Virus record (IMG/VR): IMGVR_UViG_3300042924_001894
Coordinates: 1 to 26,842 of that record
Origin: a virus
DNA: 26,842 bases
Direction: 5' to 3' (one strand)
The translations under genes and the position numbers were made by a program. Under the pieces are notes generated by a model. The model made no database searches. It was not told where the DNA came from and saw nothing but the letters and a program-made list of their open reading frames with translations. Below are positions 9,881-16,998 of the stretch, piece by piece (positions within the stretch are counted from its first letter, which is position 1; each line of letters starts with the position of its first letter).

Positions 9881-10846
9881 ATGTATACGAACGCTGCTGC
9901 AATTTTCCGTGGCGATCTCGCCGGTGTTGTCGAACAGGCCAAGGACTGGGAGTCCAACCTGATCGGTACCCGCGTGATGCCGATTCTCAATGTTCCCGTT
10001 CGCGCCGGCCAGTATCCTTCCTTCAAGTTGAAGGAGGGCCAGCTGCTCAAGAGCGACGTGAAGAACCGTTCGCCGTATGCGACCTACGCTCGCGGCACGC
10101 GCGCCTTCACGCAGGAGACGTACACCGCGCTGGAGTACGGCTACGAAGAGGCCGTAGACGATACGCTGGCCTTGGACGTGTCGCGCTACTTCGACGCCGA
10201 AACCATCGCGACCAAGCTGTGCCTCCGCAAGCTCCTGCTCGCGCATGAACTTCGCGTTTCTAGCACGATCTTCAATGCGTCGACGTTCACCTCGACGAAC
10301 TCTGGCACCGCGTACACGACCGCGAATCTCGCGACGTTCGACGTGGGTCTCGATGTCGAGGCCGCGATTGACCGCCTGCTGGCCCTGGGCGAAAGCCGCG
10401 ACAACCTCCGCGTTGTCATGAGCAACCCGGTCTACACGCGCATCAAGGCGTCCACGAAGTTCCAGAACCGCCTCCGCGGTACGGGCCTCTCGACGGACAC
10501 CATCCTCAACGCTTCGCAGCAGGCTGCTGCCGAGGTCTTCGGCGTTTCCGAGGTTCTGATTGGTCGCGCGAGCTACGATGCCGCCAAGGAAGGCCTGGCG
10601 TTCTCGTCCGCGCAGGCGTGGTCGAATGACTACATCTGGGTGGGTTCCGTGACCGATGCCTCCTCCGGCTATTTTGGAGGTGGCGCTGCGTTCACGTTGA
10701 ACTGGCAGGAGTACGGCAGCCCGACCGGCGTGTTCTCGTACCGTGACGAGGCCATCAAGAGCAACATTGTGCGCGCGTCGCACTACGTTGCCGAGAAGGT
10801 CGTCAACACCAACGCTGCGCAATTGATCGGCACTCAGTATTCCTGA
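9881..10846 (+). CDS. Major capsid protein
   Basis: A 321-residue protein in the major-capsid position, right after the decoration protein. Features consistent with an HK97-fold shell protein are an N-terminal helical arm (AIFRGDLAGVVEQAKDWE), an extended loop region (residues about 40-75, GQYPSFKLKEGQLLKSDVKN), a long spine-like helix (about 90-130, ending in LRKLLLAHELRV), and an axial domain with ALGESRDNLRVVMSNPVYTRI and the characteristic LIGRASYDAAKEG strand region. The expected high expression contrasts with the absence of an SD before the ATG. A strong intrinsic terminator begins 21 bases after the stop. No obvious N-terminal delta domain is present, which fits the separate scaffold. 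The family was not identified by name. Confidence 0.85.
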   Translation: MYTNAAAIFRGDLAGVVEQAKDWESNLIGTRVMPILNVPVRAGQYPSFKLKEGQLLKSDVKNRSPYATYARGTRAFTQETYTALEYGYEEAVDDTLALDVSRYFDAETIATKLCLRKLLLAHELRVSSTIFNASTFTSTNSGTAYTTANLATFDVGLDVEAAIDRLLALGESRDNLRVVMSNPVYTRIKASTKFQNRLRGTGLSTDTILNASQQAAAEVFGVSEVLIGRASYDAAKEGLAFSSAQAWSNDYIWVGSVTDASSGYFGGGAAFTLNWQEYGSPTGVFSYRDEAIKSNIVRASHYVAEKVVNTNAAQLIGTQYS

Positions 10847-10867
10847 GTTTTAGTTTGCGTAATACTA

Positions 10868-10900
10868 AGCCGTCATCCTTCATTGGGTGGCGGCTTTTTT
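10868..10900 (+). terminator. Rho-independent terminator after the major capsid gene
   Basis: An 11-bp stem (10868-10878 with 10885-10895; two G-U pairs), a 6-base loop and a T-run through 10900. The start codon proposed for the HNH gene begins at the next base. Confidence 0.85.
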
Positions 10901-11584
10901 ATGCACCCTTGGTACGGTCTAAAATTTAACCAGCGCAAACTTCTCACTCATGAGATGCGCTTGTGGTTAAGCAAAAATGAGGGCAAACGCTTAGAGCACG
11001 GATTTGTTCGCGAAGACGGAAAAGTTTTTTGTGGTTATGGAGTCGGCTACAAGAACGGAGAGCATTGGGCTAGTCGTGAAGTCTTTGAAAAGCGGCTTCA
11101 GGCCTGCCGGTTAAATCAGCGCAAGCTCAGAAAAGATCCAATTTACCGGGCTAAATTCAACGAATACGCTAGGGCTAGGTACTTGAAACGCTCTGATATT
11201 AGAGAAAAAAACAAAAAGCGTTCTCAGATATGGGATAAACAATTTCCCGAAAAGCGAAGTCTTCGTGCTTCTAAACGCAGAGCACTTATCAAGAAAGTTT
11301 GCCATTGCGATCATGAGCCAAACATTGAACTGGAGATGCGGAGGCTTGCAGATCAGTTAACCAAGAAAACGGGAATAAGGCATCACATCGATCACATAAT
11401 CCCAATTGCTCATGGAGGGATGCACCATCATCAAAACCTTCAGATTCTTCCTGAGCCAGTTAACCTTCAAAAGAGTTCAAATCCATTTTGGACTTCTGAG
11501 ATATATTTAGACTTCCGTTCAGTTCCGAGAACGCTGTGGCCTGAGCAACTGGCCCAATTTTTGTCAGCTATCGCGAAGTGCTAA
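10901..11584 (+). CDS. HNH endonuclease (probably free-standing homing type)
   Basis: A 227-residue protein whose C-terminal half carries an HNH nuclease motif: a Cys/His cluster VCHCDHEP (about 133-140), then GIRHHIDHIIPIAHGG (158-173) containing the core His pair, NLQ at 179-181 and N-x-x-K at 188-191. The N-terminal half (1-125) is very basic and likely binds DNA. The DNA is clearly more AT-rich than the flanking capsid and transferase genes, and the gene sits between terminators, both signs of a mobile insertion. The ATG at 10901 directly abuts a terminator T-run and has no SD; Met at 10955 is an alternative start. HNH proteins beside the terminase often act in packaging, but this one is distant from it, so a homing role is more likely. 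Confidence 0.8.
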   Translation: MHPWYGLKFNQRKLLTHEMRLWLSKNEGKRLEHGFVREDGKVFCGYGVGYKNGEHWASREVFEKRLQACRLNQRKLRKDPIYRAKFNEYARARYLKRSDIREKNKKRSQIWDKQFPEKRSLRASKRRALIKKVCHCDHEPNIELEMRRLADQLTKKTGIRHHIDHIIPIAHGGMHHHQNLQILPEPVNLQKSSNPFWTSEIYLDFRSVPRTLWPEQLAQFLSAIAKC

Positions 11585-11611
11585 GATTTGCTAGGGGTCG
11601 TTGTGTTCACG

Positions 11612-11645
11612 CCCCACCTGGCTTCGGCTGGGTGGGGTTTTCTTT
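11612..11645 (+). terminator. Rho-independent terminator after the HNH gene, UUCG loop
   Basis: An 11-bp GC-rich stem (11612-11622 with 11627-11637; two G-U pairs) closed by a UUCG tetraloop and followed by TTTTCTTT. It is the most stable-looking hairpin in the window. Confidence 0.85.
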
Positions 11646-11670: not shown

Positions 11671-11674
11671 CTCG

Positions 11675-11711
11675 ACACCGTTCAGCATAGGCTGGGCGGT
11701 GTTTCTTTTTT
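11675..11711 (+). terminator. Second rho-independent terminator upstream of the transferase genes
   Basis: A 12-bp stem (11675-11686 with 11691-11702; two G-U pairs), a 4-base loop and a T-rich tail with six consecutive T at 11706-11711. It lies 18 bases before the glycosyltransferase start. Confidence 0.8.
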
Positions 11712-11729: not shown

Positions 11730-13445
11730 ATGCGCATTTCGCTCTGTGTCATCTGCGGGAACGAACAGCACCACATCGGCCGGATGCTGGACTCATTCGC
11801 TCCGGCCTTCGACGAACTGTCTCTAGTCCGAGCCATCGGCTCGCGGAAACCCGACGCTACGCTGTCCATTGCTCGCGATTGGTGCGAGAACAACGGAAAA
11901 CGGTTCATCTTTTCCGAGCATCAGAACCAGTACGGCGCCGAGAAGTGGGAGCACGTCGACAGCTTCGGCGAGGCGCGCAACGATTCATTCCGGCAGGGCA
12001 CGGGAGACTGGCTGATCTGGGCCGACTGTGACGACATCATGGACGGTGCCGATCGTCTGCGCGAAACTCTGGCCGGCGTCGCCACAGAAGTGGCAATGGT
12101 TCGCTTCCTCTACGATGTCCGCGGTACGAATAAGAAGCTCTACCGTGAACGAGCCATGCGCCGCGCGAGTTTTCATGCCGGCCGTAAGTGGCACCACGAT
12201 GTCCACGAGAACCTTCTGCTGCTCGCCGGCGACAAGCACATGGACTTAAACGATCCGGTCTGGGTCCACGCACCGCTTGAGGTCAAGCGAGAGAACCGCA
12301 CGCGCAATCTGCGAATCCTGCGCAACTCGGTTCGCGACACGGCCGCGCAGTATTTCTATCTGCACCAAGAGCACTACTGCTCGGGCAACTACAAGGCCGC
12401 GGAGGAGTTCGCGAAGATTGCGATCTCGATGCCGAACTTGATGGACTCGTTTAAGTACGAGGCGCTTCTGAACTTGGCACGGTGCTGCGGCAATCACCGC
12501 GACGCCATCCGCTACTGCCTAGAGGCGCACGGCGTGTTTCCCTGGTGTCGCGAGGCGCTGACCTCGCTGGTGCTGCTCTACTTCGAGAAGCAGGACAAGG
12601 AACGCGCCTTTTACTGGGCTGAGCAGGCACTGCTCCGGCCGGAACCGCCAGGCGAGATCCGGCCGTGGACGCACGAGGCCAAGCATTACGGCTGGTATGG
12701 CATTGATCTGGCCGCGCGTGCAGCGCGATACGCCGGCAAGATGGAGCGTGCGGCTGAGTTGCAGTCCATGTTTCACAATCAGTCGCGGCCGACGATCTCA
12801 CTGATCCATGCGACCCGCGGTCGATCCAGCAAGGCAGTCGCGTGCCGTGAGGCGTTCCTGCAGAGCGCATTCAATCCGGCCAACGTGGAGCACATCTTCT
12901 GCGTCGACCTCGACGATCAAGTCTCAATGGAGATGTCGCAGCAATTTGAGCACGTCGTTTCCGATCAGCGCAGTTGCGTTGCGGCCTGGAACAAGGGAGC
13001 GCGCAAGGCGTCTGGCGATCTCATCATTCAGCTATCCGATGATTGGCTGCCTCCGCTGCACTGGGACTTGCGACTGTTGGAGCTAGTAGCCAGCCGCGAT
13101 CTGGCGAAGGAAGAAATCGTCATCGCGATCAACGACGGCGCGCGCAAGGACTCGCTGCTTTGCATGGCGATTATGTCGCGCGGCCGCTGGGAGAAGCAGG
13201 GCGATATGTTCTACGCTGGCTACGAGTCGGTCTTCTCGGATGACGAGTTTTCGCATCGAGCCTGGAAGGATGGCGTGGTCATCGACGCACGCGACAAGAT
13301 CACCTTTGTCCACGCGCATCCGCAATTCGGTCATGGTCAATCAGATGCGACATACCAGCACAACAACCAGAGCGAGCGATACAAGCGAGGGCGGGCACTA
13401 TTCAAGGGAAGGAATCCCGACGCTTTCGAGAAGGAGACGCCGTGA
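11730..13445 (+). CDS. Double GT2-like glycosyltransferase with a central TPR-like region
   Basis: A 571-residue protein with two GT-A type domains. The N-terminal one (1-200) opens with MRISLCVICGNEQHHIGRML, followed by FGEARNDSF and the metal/nucleotide-binding DCDD at 99-102, a GT2 pattern. Residues about 205-345 are helical pairs resembling TPR units (CSGNYKAAEEFAKIA; EKQDKERAFYWAEQAL). The C-terminal domain (352-571) restarts with RPTISLIHATRGR, has DLDD near 394 and QLSDDW at 434-439. The likely reaction is transfer of sugar from a nucleotide-sugar to a protein or glycan; donor and acceptor are unknown. It is the first of three overlapping sugar-related genes that run into a neck gene. 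A second ATG five bases upstream (11725) is out of frame. An alternative is that one of the two domains is catalytically dead. Confidence 0.8.
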   Translation: MRISLCVICGNEQHHIGRMLDSFAPAFDELSLVRAIGSRKPDATLSIARDWCENNGKRFIFSEHQNQYGAEKWEHVDSFGEARNDSFRQGTGDWLIWADCDDIMDGADRLRETLAGVATEVAMVRFLYDVRGTNKKLYRERAMRRASFHAGRKWHHDVHENLLLLAGDKHMDLNDPVWVHAPLEVKRENRTRNLRILRNSVRDTAAQYFYLHQEHYCSGNYKAAEEFAKIAISMPNLMDSFKYEALLNLARCCGNHRDAIRYCLEAHGVFPWCREALTSLVLLYFEKQDKERAFYWAEQALLRPEPPGEIRPWTHEAKHYGWYGIDLAARAARYAGKMERAAELQSMFHNQSRPTISLIHATRGRSSKAVACREAFLQSAFNPANVEHIFCVDLDDQVSMEMSQQFEHVVSDQRSCVAAWNKGARKASGDLIIQLSDDWLPPLHWDLRLLELVASRDLAKEEIVIAINDGARKDSLLCMAIMSRGRWEKQGDMFYAGYESVFSDDEFSHRAWKDGVVIDARDKITFVHAHPQFGHGQSDATYQHNNQSERYKRGRALFKGRNPDAFEKETP

Positions 13446-14032
13446 GAATACTTCGTGACGTAACTCTGATTGCAACAGACGGCGCCAATCCAGAACGGAC
13501 CGCTCGCGTGATGCGACACTGCGAGCAGATGTTCGGCTTTGCGGCCTCGGTCCTGATCGACACGCCGCAGAACTATCAAGACGCCATGCGCTGCGAGATC
13601 GAAGGATTGGCGCGCCACGTTCACACCTCGCACGCGCTGTTCGTCTCGCATGACGGCTGGATCATCAACCCTCAACTGTGGAATGATGACTGGTTGCAGT
13701 ACGATATGATCGGCGCACCTTGGCCGGCAGCCTGGGGTACAAAGCACCGCGTTGGGAATACCGGATTCTGCCTGCGTTCAAAGCGCTTCCTTGAGGCCAC
13801 GGCCGCAGCGATTCCGCTCTGGGCTGGTCAGAATGGCGACGTGTTCACCTGCCAAGTGCTCAACCGCCCGCTGACTGAACTGGGCATGAAGTACGCGCCA
13901 GTCGAGATTGCCGCCAAGTTTTCATGGGAGCACTACATCGAGGAGGGCGACTGCGGACCTGCCTGCTCTTTCGGGTTCCATGGCTGGGTCGCCGGCAAGA
14001 CGGCCGACCAGTACAACCGCCTGCTGCCATGA
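13442..14032 (+). CDS. DUF5672-like putative glycosyltransferase
   Basis: A 196-residue protein starting at a GTG that overlaps the previous stop (GTGA) with a good SD, AAGGAG at 13431-13436, five bases upstream. The core YDMIGAPWPAAWG, followed by RVGNTGFCLRSKRFLEA, is the hallmark of DUF5672 proteins, which often accompany glycosyltransferases and are thought to be GT-like enzymes. LFVSHDGWIINP upstream of it fits a metal-binding His-Asp segment. No signal or membrane segment is present. It is coupled on both sides to transferase genes (ATGA overlap downstream), so it most likely works on the same glycan. Confidence 0.72.
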   Translation: MRILRDVTLIATDGANPERTARVMRHCEQMFGFAASVLIDTPQNYQDAMRCEIEGLARHVHTSHALFVSHDGWIINPQLWNDDWLQYDMIGAPWPAAWGTKHRVGNTGFCLRSKRFLEATAAAIPLWAGQNGDVFTCQVLNRPLTELGMKYAPVEIAAKFSWEHYIEEGDCGPACSFGFHGWVAGKTADQYNRLLP

Positions 14033-14742
14033 AGACCATTGTCTTAGTCTACCACGAGCGGCTGGGCGATATCCTCCGTTGCTTGCCAATAGCGAGGCAC
14101 TTTGCGTCGGCGGGATACGACGTAGCCATCGAGTGCCTGCCTCAGTATTACGGCGTTTTTGAGGCCGTCAGCTACGCGCGGCCGACATCGCCTGGGCGTG
14201 ACCTAAAGGCACGGCGCATCGACCTGCAGATCTGGCCGGATAAGTACGTTGCTTTCCGCGCTAGTGGCAAGTCGTGGGAAGACTTCGTGTACGGGCTGCT
14301 GCCGGAGTGCGACGGCCTAGACCGTTCAATCGTCTTTGATCGAGTGCCGACGATGTCAGCCGTCGAGGACCATCTGTACGGTCCACAGACCGCCATCGTT
14401 TCCCCTTTCGGCTACAGCCAAACGGTCAAGATGTCGCCGGCACTCATCTGCCAGCACGCCTTCCAAACCTTCGGCGCACCGATGCGCATTCTGGCCGATG
14501 AGCGGCAGGCCGAGGCCTGCATCGCTGCCGGCTGGTCTGAGTCGTTGTTCCTCACGGCACGGTCCATTCCTGACCTGATCCGGATGTTGCGTGACGCTCG
14601 CCAGGTGATGACCGTTAACTCAGCACCTGCCATCATTTGCAATGCCGTGCGGTCGTCCTATTGGCACATTCCGTCCGGCACGCCGCAGGATGATACGATC
14701 ACCGCCAAGTCCAAGGTTGTGACATTTGCCCCTTTAGTATGA
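14029..14742 (+). CDS. GT9-like (heptosyltransferase-type) glycosyltransferase
   Basis: A 237-residue protein starting at an ATG that overlaps the previous stop. The N-terminus (MKTIVLVYHERLGDILRCLP, then IARHFASAGYDVAIEC) is the GT9 nucleotide-sugar fold opening, including the GD-x-L-x-x-LP pattern. The C-terminal MTVNSAPAIICNAV followed by SSYWHIPSG corresponds to the GT9 donor-binding segment, usually a T-x-x-S/P-x-x-H-x-A pattern. It is shorter than cellular heptosyltransferases (about 320-350 residues), so it may be a reduced phage form. Its stop overlaps the start of the FII-like neck gene, tying it to the structural operon. Donor and acceptor cannot be read from the sequence. Confidence 0.7.
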   Translation: MKTIVLVYHERLGDILRCLPIARHFASAGYDVAIECLPQYYGVFEAVSYARPTSPGRDLKARRIDLQIWPDKYVAFRASGKSWEDFVYGLLPECDGLDRSIVFDRVPTMSAVEDHLYGPQTAIVSPFGYSQTVKMSPALICQHAFQTFGAPMRILADERQAEACIAAGWSESLFLTARSIPDLIRMLRDARQVMTVNSAPAIICNAVRSSYWHIPSGTPQDDTITAKSKVVTFAPLV

Positions 14743-15056
14743 CCGTCCGAGACTTTGACCCGACGCGCCTGGAGGCGGACTTTTCGGCCATTCAAGATCA
14801 GGCTGGCATCACGTTCAGCATCTTCAACACGGTTATCACCGGCGTTTGGGCTAATTCGCGCAACGTCTTTCAATCATTTGAAGATCAGCGCCGAGACGAG
14901 GGGCGCTTCACGGTATTTTTCCTAGCGTCGCAGGTCGTGACTGCTCCGCAGCTGACCACGACTGTCGTGCGCGCGGGCGTGACGTACTTCGTCGAGAACA
15001 TGGAGTTCGACGCCGAGGGCACTGGAGTTCAGATTGAGGTCAAGAAGTCGATATGA
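14739..15056 (+). CDS. Head-tail connector (lambda FII-like position)
   Basis: A 105-residue, beta-rich protein whose ATG overlaps the preceding stop (ATGA) and whose end overlaps the next gene by four bases. By order it corresponds to lambda FII, the head-completion protein that binds the packaged head and forms the tail-attachment site. Size is close to FII (117 residues). The body alternates strands (RFTVFFLASQVV; TYFVENMEFDAEGTGVQIEV) with one N-terminal helix. The call rests mainly on synteny and size. An alternative is another small neck adaptor of the same fold. Confidence 0.6.
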   Translation: MTVRDFDPTRLEADFSAIQDQAGITFSIFNTVITGVWANSRNVFQSFEDQRRDEGRFTVFFLASQVVTAPQLTTTVVRAGVTYFVENMEFDAEGTGVQIEVKKSI

Positions 15057-15856
15057 TTGAGATTGAGGCACGCACCAAGGATCTAGAGATGGCGCTAGCG
15101 CGATTGGCTAGCGCGGCACGGGTGGACTATGGGCAGGTGGTGAAGCAGGAAGCGCAGTACTTGTTGCAAACTCTGCTTAAATTTACGCCGCCAAAGAGCA
15201 GGCCGCAGGGCAACGCCGCAGTTGCGCGCGACATGAATAACCTGACAACGCCTTTTGCGCATCGTTATTTCCAAGAGCGTCAGACTGAGGGCGGGTTCTA
15301 TAAGTCAATTGCCAGATACGTCCGCACTCGCGAAAGCGGCAAACTCCAAGCGTTGTTCAATAATGCAAACTTGAAGGGATTCTACGGGCTGCAACTGCTG
15401 ACCACAAAGCAAGAAATTCTGAACATCCATAAGCAGAGACGGAACAATCGAGGTCGCGTTGAAAGCGGGAAAAAGCAGTACGCATCATACATCGCCGACG
15501 CAAAGGCCGTGCGTAAGGAAATACAATCTCGCGTAGGCTGGACGCTCTCCGGCTGGGTTCCTGCGGCCAAGGCTACGGGAGCACGTTACCTGAAGTTCTC
15601 GGACCGCTTCGGCGCAAAGAGCGGCACGCAGTCTTCAAACTTCAACACGCCCAATCCGTTTATCATCGGGCGAAACTTCAACGTGAAGATCCCGAACTAT
15701 CAGAGCAAGGTCACGAGCGCCTTACGGTCACGCACTGGAACCACCGTAAAAAAACTGGAGCGCGTGCTTGCCGGCCGAGCGGTTAACCTCGGCTTTATTC
15801 GTGTGCAAGGCAATGGCGCTGTTCCAGCCGCAACGCCGCCGACTCCCACCGCATGA
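15053..15856 (+). CDS. Minor tail / neck protein (gpZ or HK97 gp10-like position)
   Basis: A 267-residue, strongly basic protein between the connector and the tail terminator, the place of lambda gpZ or HK97 gp10. It begins with a helix (EARTKDLEMALARLASAARV), then a VVKQEAQYLLQTLLKFTPP segment typical of gp10-like proteins, and ends in a Pro/Thr/Ala tail. The middle is Arg/Lys-rich (HKQRRNNRGRVESGKKQYA). It is longer than HK97 gp10 (about 140-150) and closer to gpZ (192). It may help join the tail terminator to the connector. Overlaps on both sides show translational coupling. Confidence 0.6.
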   Translation: MIEIEARTKDLEMALARLASAARVDYGQVVKQEAQYLLQTLLKFTPPKSRPQGNAAVARDMNNLTTPFAHRYFQERQTEGGFYKSIARYVRTRESGKLQALFNNANLKGFYGLQLLTTKQEILNIHKQRRNNRGRVESGKKQYASYIADAKAVRKEIQSRVGWTLSGWVPAAKATGARYLKFSDRFGAKSGTQSSNFNTPNPFIIGRNFNVKIPNYQSKVTSALRSRTGTTVKKLERVLAGRAVNLGFIRVQGNGAVPAATPPTPTA

Positions 15857-16287
15857 GTACCAGAACACAAATTCGAAACGCCATCGGCGCTAAGCTAACC
15901 GCCGGCGGTGCAGTCGTGCCGACCGCTAACCTGTTGCGAGGTCGGAATAACACTCTTACCTCAATGTCGTTTCCGGCCGCAGCAGTCTATGCCGTCGACG
16001 AACAGATTGAGGTTCGGTCGCTAGCGCCAAGCAATCGCGTGCAGTACCGCCAGCTTACCGTGAATGTGGACTACTTCACGGCACAGACTGGCGTGACGTA
16101 CATCGACGACCTATTCGACAGCGGCTCGGCTGCGGTTGAGGCCGCGGTTTTGGAGGATGTCACGCTAGGGGGCGTATGCGATGACCTTCATCTGACAAAC
16201 GTACAATATGTGACGGAGGACGATGAGGACAAGCGCTGGGGCGTCGCGCGTCATACCTTCAACTGCATTTATCTAACCACTGACTAA
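15853..16287 (+). CDS. Tail terminator protein (gpU-like position)
   Basis: A 144-residue protein starting at an ATG overlapping the previous stop by four bases. The layout (N-terminal helix TRTQIRNAIGAKL, strand FPAAAVYAVDEQIE, strand YRQLTVNVDYFTA, helix DDLFDSGSAAVEAAVL, then strands) matches tail terminators of the lambda U type, which cap the tail tube at its final length and join it to the head. Its neighbours, a neck protein before and the tail tube after, agree. The family assignment is from fold pattern and order. Confidence 0.7.
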   Translation: MSTRTQIRNAIGAKLTAGGAVVPTANLLRGRNNTLTSMSFPAAAVYAVDEQIEVRSLAPSNRVQYRQLTVNVDYFTAQTGVTYIDDLFDSGSAAVEAAVLEDVTLGGVCDDLHLTNVQYVTEDDEDKRWGVARHTFNCIYLTTD

Positions 16288-16288
16288 T

Positions 16289-16675
16289 ATGGCAAACCAC
16301 CTGGGCCGCGAAGGCACCGTTCGAATCAGCAGCACCACCATTGGCGAATTGCGGAACTACTCGTTGGCGCATTCGTCGGATGTCGTCGAAGACTCCATCA
16401 TCGGAGACACCTACCGCACTCGTAAGGCAACGCTCCGCACTTGGTCTGTTTCGGGCGATCTTTACTGGGACGAAGTCGACGCTGGACAGATTGCCTTGAC
16501 CGTTGGTTCATCTGTTACGGTCAACCTCTATCCGGAAGGCACTGCTTTGACGGCCACCTACTACACGGGCGGCGGCATCGTGACCAAGTTTGATATCAGT
16601 GCCGCGTTTGACGGGATGGTAGAATCTGCAATTTCCATCGAAGGGAACGGCGCTCTGAGCACCGTTACGGTCTAA
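16289..16675 (+). CDS. Major tail tube protein
   Basis: A 128-residue beta-rich protein, the building block of the tail tube. It opens with GREGTVRISSTTIGELRNYS, a strand pair typical of small siphophage tube proteins, and contains the WSVSGDLYWDEVDAGQ segment and a closing Gly/Ser strand (ISIEGNGALSTVTV). It lacks the C-terminal Ig-like domain of lambda gpV. It sits directly between the terminator and the chaperone genes, as gpV does. No SD is visible; the ATG starts one base after the previous stop. The last base of its stop codon is the first base of the next ATG. Confidence 0.8.
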   Translation: MANHLGREGTVRISSTTIGELRNYSLAHSSDVVEDSIIGDTYRTRKATLRTWSVSGDLYWDEVDAGQIALTVGSSVTVNLYPEGTALTATYYTGGGIVTKFDISAAFDGMVESAISIEGNGALSTVTV

Positions 16676-16998
16676 TGGATGCAATCGACCTAGTACGCGA
16701 ACACTTCGCCGCGCTCGGCACCCGCTCAATTGAGGTGCCAGAGTGGAAGCTGACGATCTACGCAACGCCAGTCACGCTGGCCGAGAAGAATCGCCTTTAC
16801 CGCAAGGCCAAGGACAACGACATGGAGCTACTAGTCGATGTTCTAATCTTAAAGGCAGCAGACAAGGACGGCAACAAGCTGTTCAACGCTGACCACAAGA
16901 TGACCTTGCTGCACAAGGCCGACTCGAATCTCATTGCGCGTGTCGCCAACTTCATTCTGTCGGAGGCTGCGCCGCCAGTTGAAGAACTAAAAAACTGA
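16675..16998 (+). CDS. Tail assembly chaperone, short form (gpG-like)
   Basis: A 107-residue helical protein that in this position keeps the tape measure soluble and recruits tube subunits. It ends in a slippery heptamer, A AAA AAC, immediately before its TGA stop, and the -1 frame continues to just inside the tape measure gene. This is the lambda G/GT design, in which a small fraction of ribosomes slip to make a longer protein. The sequence (ATPVTLAEKNRLYRKAKDND, then LLVDVLILKAADKDGNKLF) fits a tail assembly chaperone. The ATG overlaps the last base of the previous stop. Confidence 0.82.
   Translation: MDAIDLVREHFAALGTRSIEVPEWKLTIYATPVTLAEKNRLYRKAKDNDMELLVDVLILKAADKDGNKLFNADHKMTLLHKADSNLIARVANFILSEAAPPVEELKN

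Follow-up and report, generated by a model that had tools for sequence, protein, structure and literature searches.

A sugar-enzyme cassette with an exchangeable middle gene in the virion operon of an uncultured siphovirus family

Introduction

To our knowledge, glycosylation of phage-particle proteins has been documented in few phages, mostly mycobacterial ones. In Corndog (Cluster O mycobacteriophages), two or three glycosyltransferase genes and an O-methyltransferase gene are located in the structural operon; the enzymes are produced in infected cells but are missing from virions, and modification of the capsid is suspected (PMC4351075). For Che8, virion glycosylation was described and capsid glycans were reported, also for related phages, according to work cited in PMC11256854. 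The attachment of mycobacteriophage glycans was placed at the C-termini of capsid and tail-tube proteins, as cited in PMC12619734.

The DNA analysed here, called the window, is the whole of a 26.8-kb virus record (26,842 nt), the contents of which are those of a siphovirus structural module. Its positions 11730-14742 hold a cassette of three genes, named GT_A, the DUF5672 gene, and GT_C. Similar to the Corndog/Che8 kind of arrangement, the glycosyltransferase genes of the window lie inside the structural operon, and the virion-operon glycosyltransferase/methyltransferase genes of Corndog are the closest known system. However, the Corndog genes are situated between portal and protease, whereas those of the window are found between capsid and neck. 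The methyltransferase companion of the Corndog/Che8 kind of cassette is not present in the window, which has DUF5672 in the slot, but it is present in most relatives. The window's family also differs from Corndog in the GT2-TPR-GT2 fusion, in the GT9-like partner, and in a swappable slot that is fixed across the family. Among tblastn matches at E 1e-5 there were no mycobacteriophage homologues of the cassette proteins. In contrast to the C-terminal attachment described for mycobacteriophages (in the work cited in PMC12619734), the capsid protein of the window has no Ser/Thr-rich tail at its C-terminus, and this terminus was therefore ruled out as an acceptor.

Organization of the cassette and its surroundings

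The features of the region are collected in Table 1. The initial annotation had proposed three sugar-related genes linked by short overlaps, the last one sharing four bases with the neck gene, and the ORF check bore out both the coordinates and the overlaps. All three ORFs are intact. The two internal junctions, of GT_A with the DUF5672 gene and of the DUF5672 gene with GT_C, are overlaps (GTGA and ATGA); GT_C in turn shares an ATGA of four bases, at 14739, with neck1.

Table 1. Positions of the cassette genes, their motifs and the neighbouring features in the window
Feature	Position	Strand	Remarks
Major capsid protein gene	9881..10846	+	upstream of cassette; phrog_1005, E 1.6e-31
Terminator-like hairpin	10867..10896	+	3' of capsid gene
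HNH endonuclease ORF	10901..11584	+	between capsid gene and GT_A; missing from most relatives
Terminator-like hairpin	11611..11638	+	upstream of GT_A; most relatives have similar ones
Terminator-like hairpin	11674..11703	+	directly 5' of GT_A
GT_A	11730..13445	+	GT2 at about residues 1-200, TPR-like helices 205-348, second GT2 355-551
DCDD acidic motif, first GT2 domain	12024..12035	+	residues 99-102; invariant in 16 homologues
QLSDDW acidic motif, second GT2 domain	13029..13046	+	residues 434-439; invariant in 16 homologues
DUF5672 gene	13442..14032	+	occupies the exchangeable middle slot
GT_C	14029..14742	+	short GT-B protein, GT9-like fold, RLGD motif at residues 11-14
neck1, head-tail connector gene	14739..15056	+	Pfam Phage_attach, weak (E 0.093); position conserved

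The cassette had also been described as coupled to the virion operon. This stands for the downstream side, where the overlap with neck1 is located, but not for the upstream side, since the HNH ORF and three hairpins, which the initial annotation had not listed, part the capsid gene from the cassette. The tight coupling is thus to neck1 and not to the capsid gene, and the hairpins make co-expression with the latter less certain. There were 16 terminator-like sites found in the region, compared to 8.1 in shuffled sequences. A hairpin followed by a T-run precedes GT_A in most of the relatives displayed, which makes read-through of an attenuator plausible. A free-standing HNH gene directly after the capsid gene was observed in the window (10847-11590) and also in contigs L029, L070, L080, L085, and L088. 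The stop codon of the window's HNH gene opens the sequence TAAGATTTG..TAGGG, which follows the capsid gene in relatives devoid of HNH; the insertion point is therefore the capsid stop.

Some further properties of the window were recorded. A simple motif check detected a Shine-Dalgarno-like sequence before 4 of the 27 window genes; most genes start with NNCATG or NNCCATG and have no Shine-Dalgarno sequence, which may hint at the translation signals of the host. The search of the window against Rfam gave no match. One relative was binned in a betaproteobacterial MAG, which is weak evidence for the host. The contigs compared throughout are metagenomic and many of them are partial.

Relationships of the cassette enzymes

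The family assignments made initially (double GT2 with TPR, DUF5672-like, GT9-like) agreed with Pfam, PHROGs, profiles, and structural models. In GT_A, Pfam recognizes GT2 (PF00535, E 5.7e-12), and both halves of the protein are glycosyltransferases according to PHROGs (phrog_13126 for residues 1-344 and phrog_14945 for residues 355-551). The TPR region is weak by Pfam (E 0.92) and clear by the family profile, which matched designed TPR chains with E values as low as 6e-16; the model of GT_A (pLDDT 82), with paired helices at 205-348 between the GT2 domain and the second GT2 domain, likewise upholds it. A shortened GT_A variant found in the capsid-keyed set has lost the QLSDDW motif, and a small GT2-like gene stands next to it.

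Profile matches of GT_A include GmaR (E 5.7e-12), the ThuS chain 7msk (6.5e-7), and SunS (6e-5), and in the Foldseek ranking of the model SunS and ThuS came top, followed by K4CP, which contains two GT2 domains as does GT_A. The closest solved kin of GT_A are the protein/peptide glycosyltransferases GmaR, SunS, and ThuS. GT_A shares with them the N-terminal GT2 followed by TPR-like helices, and its acidic motif is conserved. However, GmaR carries an anti-repressor domain where GT_A has its second GT2 domain, and against the SunS family TIGR04195 GT_A scored 11.9 bits, far under the 350-bit cut-off. Kin of GT_A are encoded in at least 562 stretches of the viral collection. Glycosyltransferases of Streptomyces phages were considered as counterparts and rejected, because the match is confined to the second domain of GT_A; in Daubenski, the single Streptomyces phage record examined, the glycosyltransferase genes are located outside the head genes.

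The kinship of GT_A raises the question of the acceptor. The GmaR protein of Listeria, with the same GT2-TPR layout, is bifunctional, combining flagellin O-GlcNAc transferase with the anti-repressor domain (PMC3150276), and FlmG provides an example of TPR-guided flagellin modification (PMC7591256). By analogy, the cassette enzymes might glycosylate a host protein, e.g., flagellin or pilin, and thereby alter adsorption or the motility of the infected cell. We find this improbable, since the cassette is a core component of the virion operon throughout the family and overlaps neck1, and the exchange of the slot gene would require a host target that changes repeatedly. Phage glycosyltransferases are also often directed to DNA (reviewed in PMC12619734), and transfer of sugars to modified bases of the phage DNA was taken into account. 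It is hardly to be expected here, given that the kin of GT_A are protein enzymes, that a TPR-like region is present, and that among the matches listed for a 36.7-kb relative there were DNA methyltransferases only and no gene for hypermodified-base synthesis.

The DUF5672 protein matches PF18922 (E 3.9e-16) with 59.6 bits, above the Pfam gathering cut-off of 24.4, and comparison with the PDB by sequence gave no solved relative. Its tblastn match in a Synechococcus phage spans a DegT/StrS sugar-aminotransferase annotation, and the context, including this match, suggests a role in sugar chemistry. GT_C has no sequence-family match in Pfam, PHROG, or NCBIfam. Its model (pLDDT 90) shows the fold of GT9 heptosyltransferases (Foldseek E 1e-6, prob 1.00), and WaaC, Veillonella GT9, and the protein heptosyltransferase TibC were matched with TMq of ~0.6-0.7. 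The GT-B fold is common to all of them; however, GT_C is ~65-150 residues shorter than the solved GT9 members.

Conservation of the cassette in the phage family

Searches keyed on the transferases are biased toward loci that have transferases, and the capsid protein was therefore chosen as bait. Every one of the 139 usable capsid-keyed contigs, from two clades, has GT_A as the next gene downstream of the capsid gene and of the HNH gene where one is present. In the clade of the window it was present in 70/70 newly fetched contigs, with contigs ending within 122 bases or inside the HNH gene set aside. In a distant clade, whose capsid protein is ~36% identical to that of the window, it was present in 69/69 contigs with more than 116 bases past the capsid gene. 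Each scan took the best 80 contigs, so the complete count describes those samples. In the transferase-keyed set, the order of capsid, optional HNH, GT_A, slot, GT_C, and neck1 was found in 125 loci (100 distinct contigs), and the exceptions are few contigs that have no GT_C or end early. The cassette is thus core in the sampled uncultured phage family. Roseobacter phage CRP-406, which has a related tail tip and no cassette, was considered as an empty site; however, its capsid protein shows no homology, and so it proves nothing about the absence of the cassette.

The three cassette genes of the window have dN/dS of 0.05-0.16 where it could be estimated. Across cassette genes and slot variants the range is 0.05-0.17, one comparison being saturated, which resembles the values for capsid and neck1. 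The cassette genes are under strong purifying selection. One could propose that the cassette is a moron, a passenger that has no fixed role and travels with the adjacent HNH gene: slot genes are swapped, and some phages have a mobile HNH gene next to the cassette. Such a status is very unlikely in the light of the selection, of the presence of GT_A in every usable capsid-keyed contig of both clades, and of the four bases that GT_C and neck1 have in common in the window.

Exchange of the middle slot

The initial annotation had suggested a search for the same three-gene set in other phages. In the 100 contigs GT_A stays constant and GT_C almost so, but the middle gene is swapped. The methyltransferase MT23 alone occupies the slot in 60 of these contigs and DUF5672 in 16, although such frequencies, coming from loci collected for their resemblance to the window, are not population estimates. 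MT24 together with GT2 was found in 10 contigs and in one truncated contig, MT23 with GT2 in 5, and a small GT2, in loci devoid of GT_C, in 4; the slot was empty in 2. Two further combinations were seen in a single contig each. In one, a third methyltransferase is accompanied by a 189-aa protein and GT2; the other comprises a GT9-like protein, two TPP-enzyme halves, and a zinc ADH. The 189-aa protein and this “GT9-like” slot protein gave no family match. Judged by family, the slot occupants are all predicted to be sugar-linked or methyl-transfer enzymes.

The swaps occur among phages with 95-100% identity in the flanking proteins. In contigs L047 and L083 the slot differs, while GT_A is 99%, GT_C 96%, and neck1 100% identical, and the junctions at the DNA level coincide with the stop codon of GT_A and the start codon of GT_C. 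In an independent case, L008 and L011, the slot differs and GT_A is 98% identical. For such pairs, identity extends over the genes that the two contigs share, and several pairs have dissimilar neck2 genes. On the GT_A tree at least 14 slot changes are needed; the minimum for eight states is 7, and shuffled labels average 32.5. These data show that, with GT_A constant and GT_C nearly constant, the slot is exchanged gene-exactly between phages. The swapping is as expected if these phages put a variable sugar coat on their own particles.

A separate observation concerns neck2 (15053-15856 in the window), the second gene downstream of the cassette, which is hypervariable in the window and in L004, L007, L047, L083, and L088, with 30-63% identity where its neighbours have 93-100%. 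A tie between the slot and this gene was ruled out, because phages that share a slot type have neck2 proteins anywhere between 49 and 100% identical.

Acceptor and proposed function

The fold matches of GT_A are not restricted to enzymes with protein acceptors. They include TarS, TarP, and K4CP, and GT2 enzymes act also on lipids and polysaccharides, which speaks against protein glycosylation. The capsid C-terminus devoid of a Ser/Thr tail and the lack of mycobacteriophage homologues at E 1e-5 count against it as well. It can be considered that the enzymes alter a surface glycan or glycolipid of the host during infection and in this way block superinfection or re-adsorption of virions to debris. 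GT2 and GT9 enzymes often work on cell-surface polymers, and WaaC, TarS, and TarP are all among the fold matches of the cassette. We nevertheless judge this explanation unlikely. No strongly hydrophobic 19-residue segment was detected in the window cassette proteins or the slot variants, and since the cassette proteins tested are free of membrane segments, there is no flippase or polyprenyl-linked transferase. A search of 13 phage contigs, the majority possibly incomplete, revealed no integrase. The cassette is fixed among head genes and not among early or accessory ones, and the closest relatives of GT_A have protein acceptors. The Gtr serotype-conversion systems of temperate phages are similar in that sugar enzymes are phage-borne and their variation would alter a surface glycan. 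However, the cassette lies among head genes and has no membrane flippase or transferase, and a membrane system of the Gtr type was rejected, as no membrane segments were detected in the proteins tested and no integrase in the same 13 contigs.

The solubility of the enzymes, the lack of an integrase in those contigs, and the constant position among head genes make phage proteins the more likely targets, with the enzymes acting in the cytosol. It is rather probable that the cassette glycosylates proteins in the cytosol for a siphovirus family, probably lytic, and that its target is a virion or assembly protein, which would receive a short glycan specific to the phage. Such modification of virion proteins or assembly products, already suggested in the initial annotation, is the best-supported reading, given the place in the operon, the kin of GT_A, the solubility of the enzymes, and the integrase result. 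Capsid residues 128-147 are rich in Ser/Thr (11/20), similarly within the window's clade, and may be a candidate acceptor site. The Pro/Thr tail of neck2 was also considered and ruled out, as it is not conserved. In contig L151, a gene with a sulfotransferase domain (15079-16884; PF13469, E 6e-14) and an RCC1-repeat gene (14004-15122) sit between fibre and protease genes, perhaps as another decoration function of the virion region.

In the proposed mechanism of virion-protein glycosylation, the TPR-like region of GT_A would hold the acceptor protein while the first GT2 domain attaches the first sugar, with a nucleotide sugar of the host as donor. Chain extension would fall to the second GT2 domain and GT_C, and the slot enzyme (DUF5672 here, a methyltransferase and/or an extra GT2 elsewhere) would add or cap the outer unit. 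Exchange of the slot gene would then give a different outer sugar, like a serotype switch. More tentatively, the locus may be dedicated to glycan switching in lytic phages, with a core glycan made by GT_A and GT_C on a virion protein and horizontal slot exchange altering the outer unit, so that the particles would have serotypes selected for variety.

An entire uncultured family thus has sugar enzymes as a fixed component of its virion operon, and their slot is naturally swapped on near-identical flanks. The natural slot-swap pairs offer ready comparisons for the function of phage glycans and for selection for their change.
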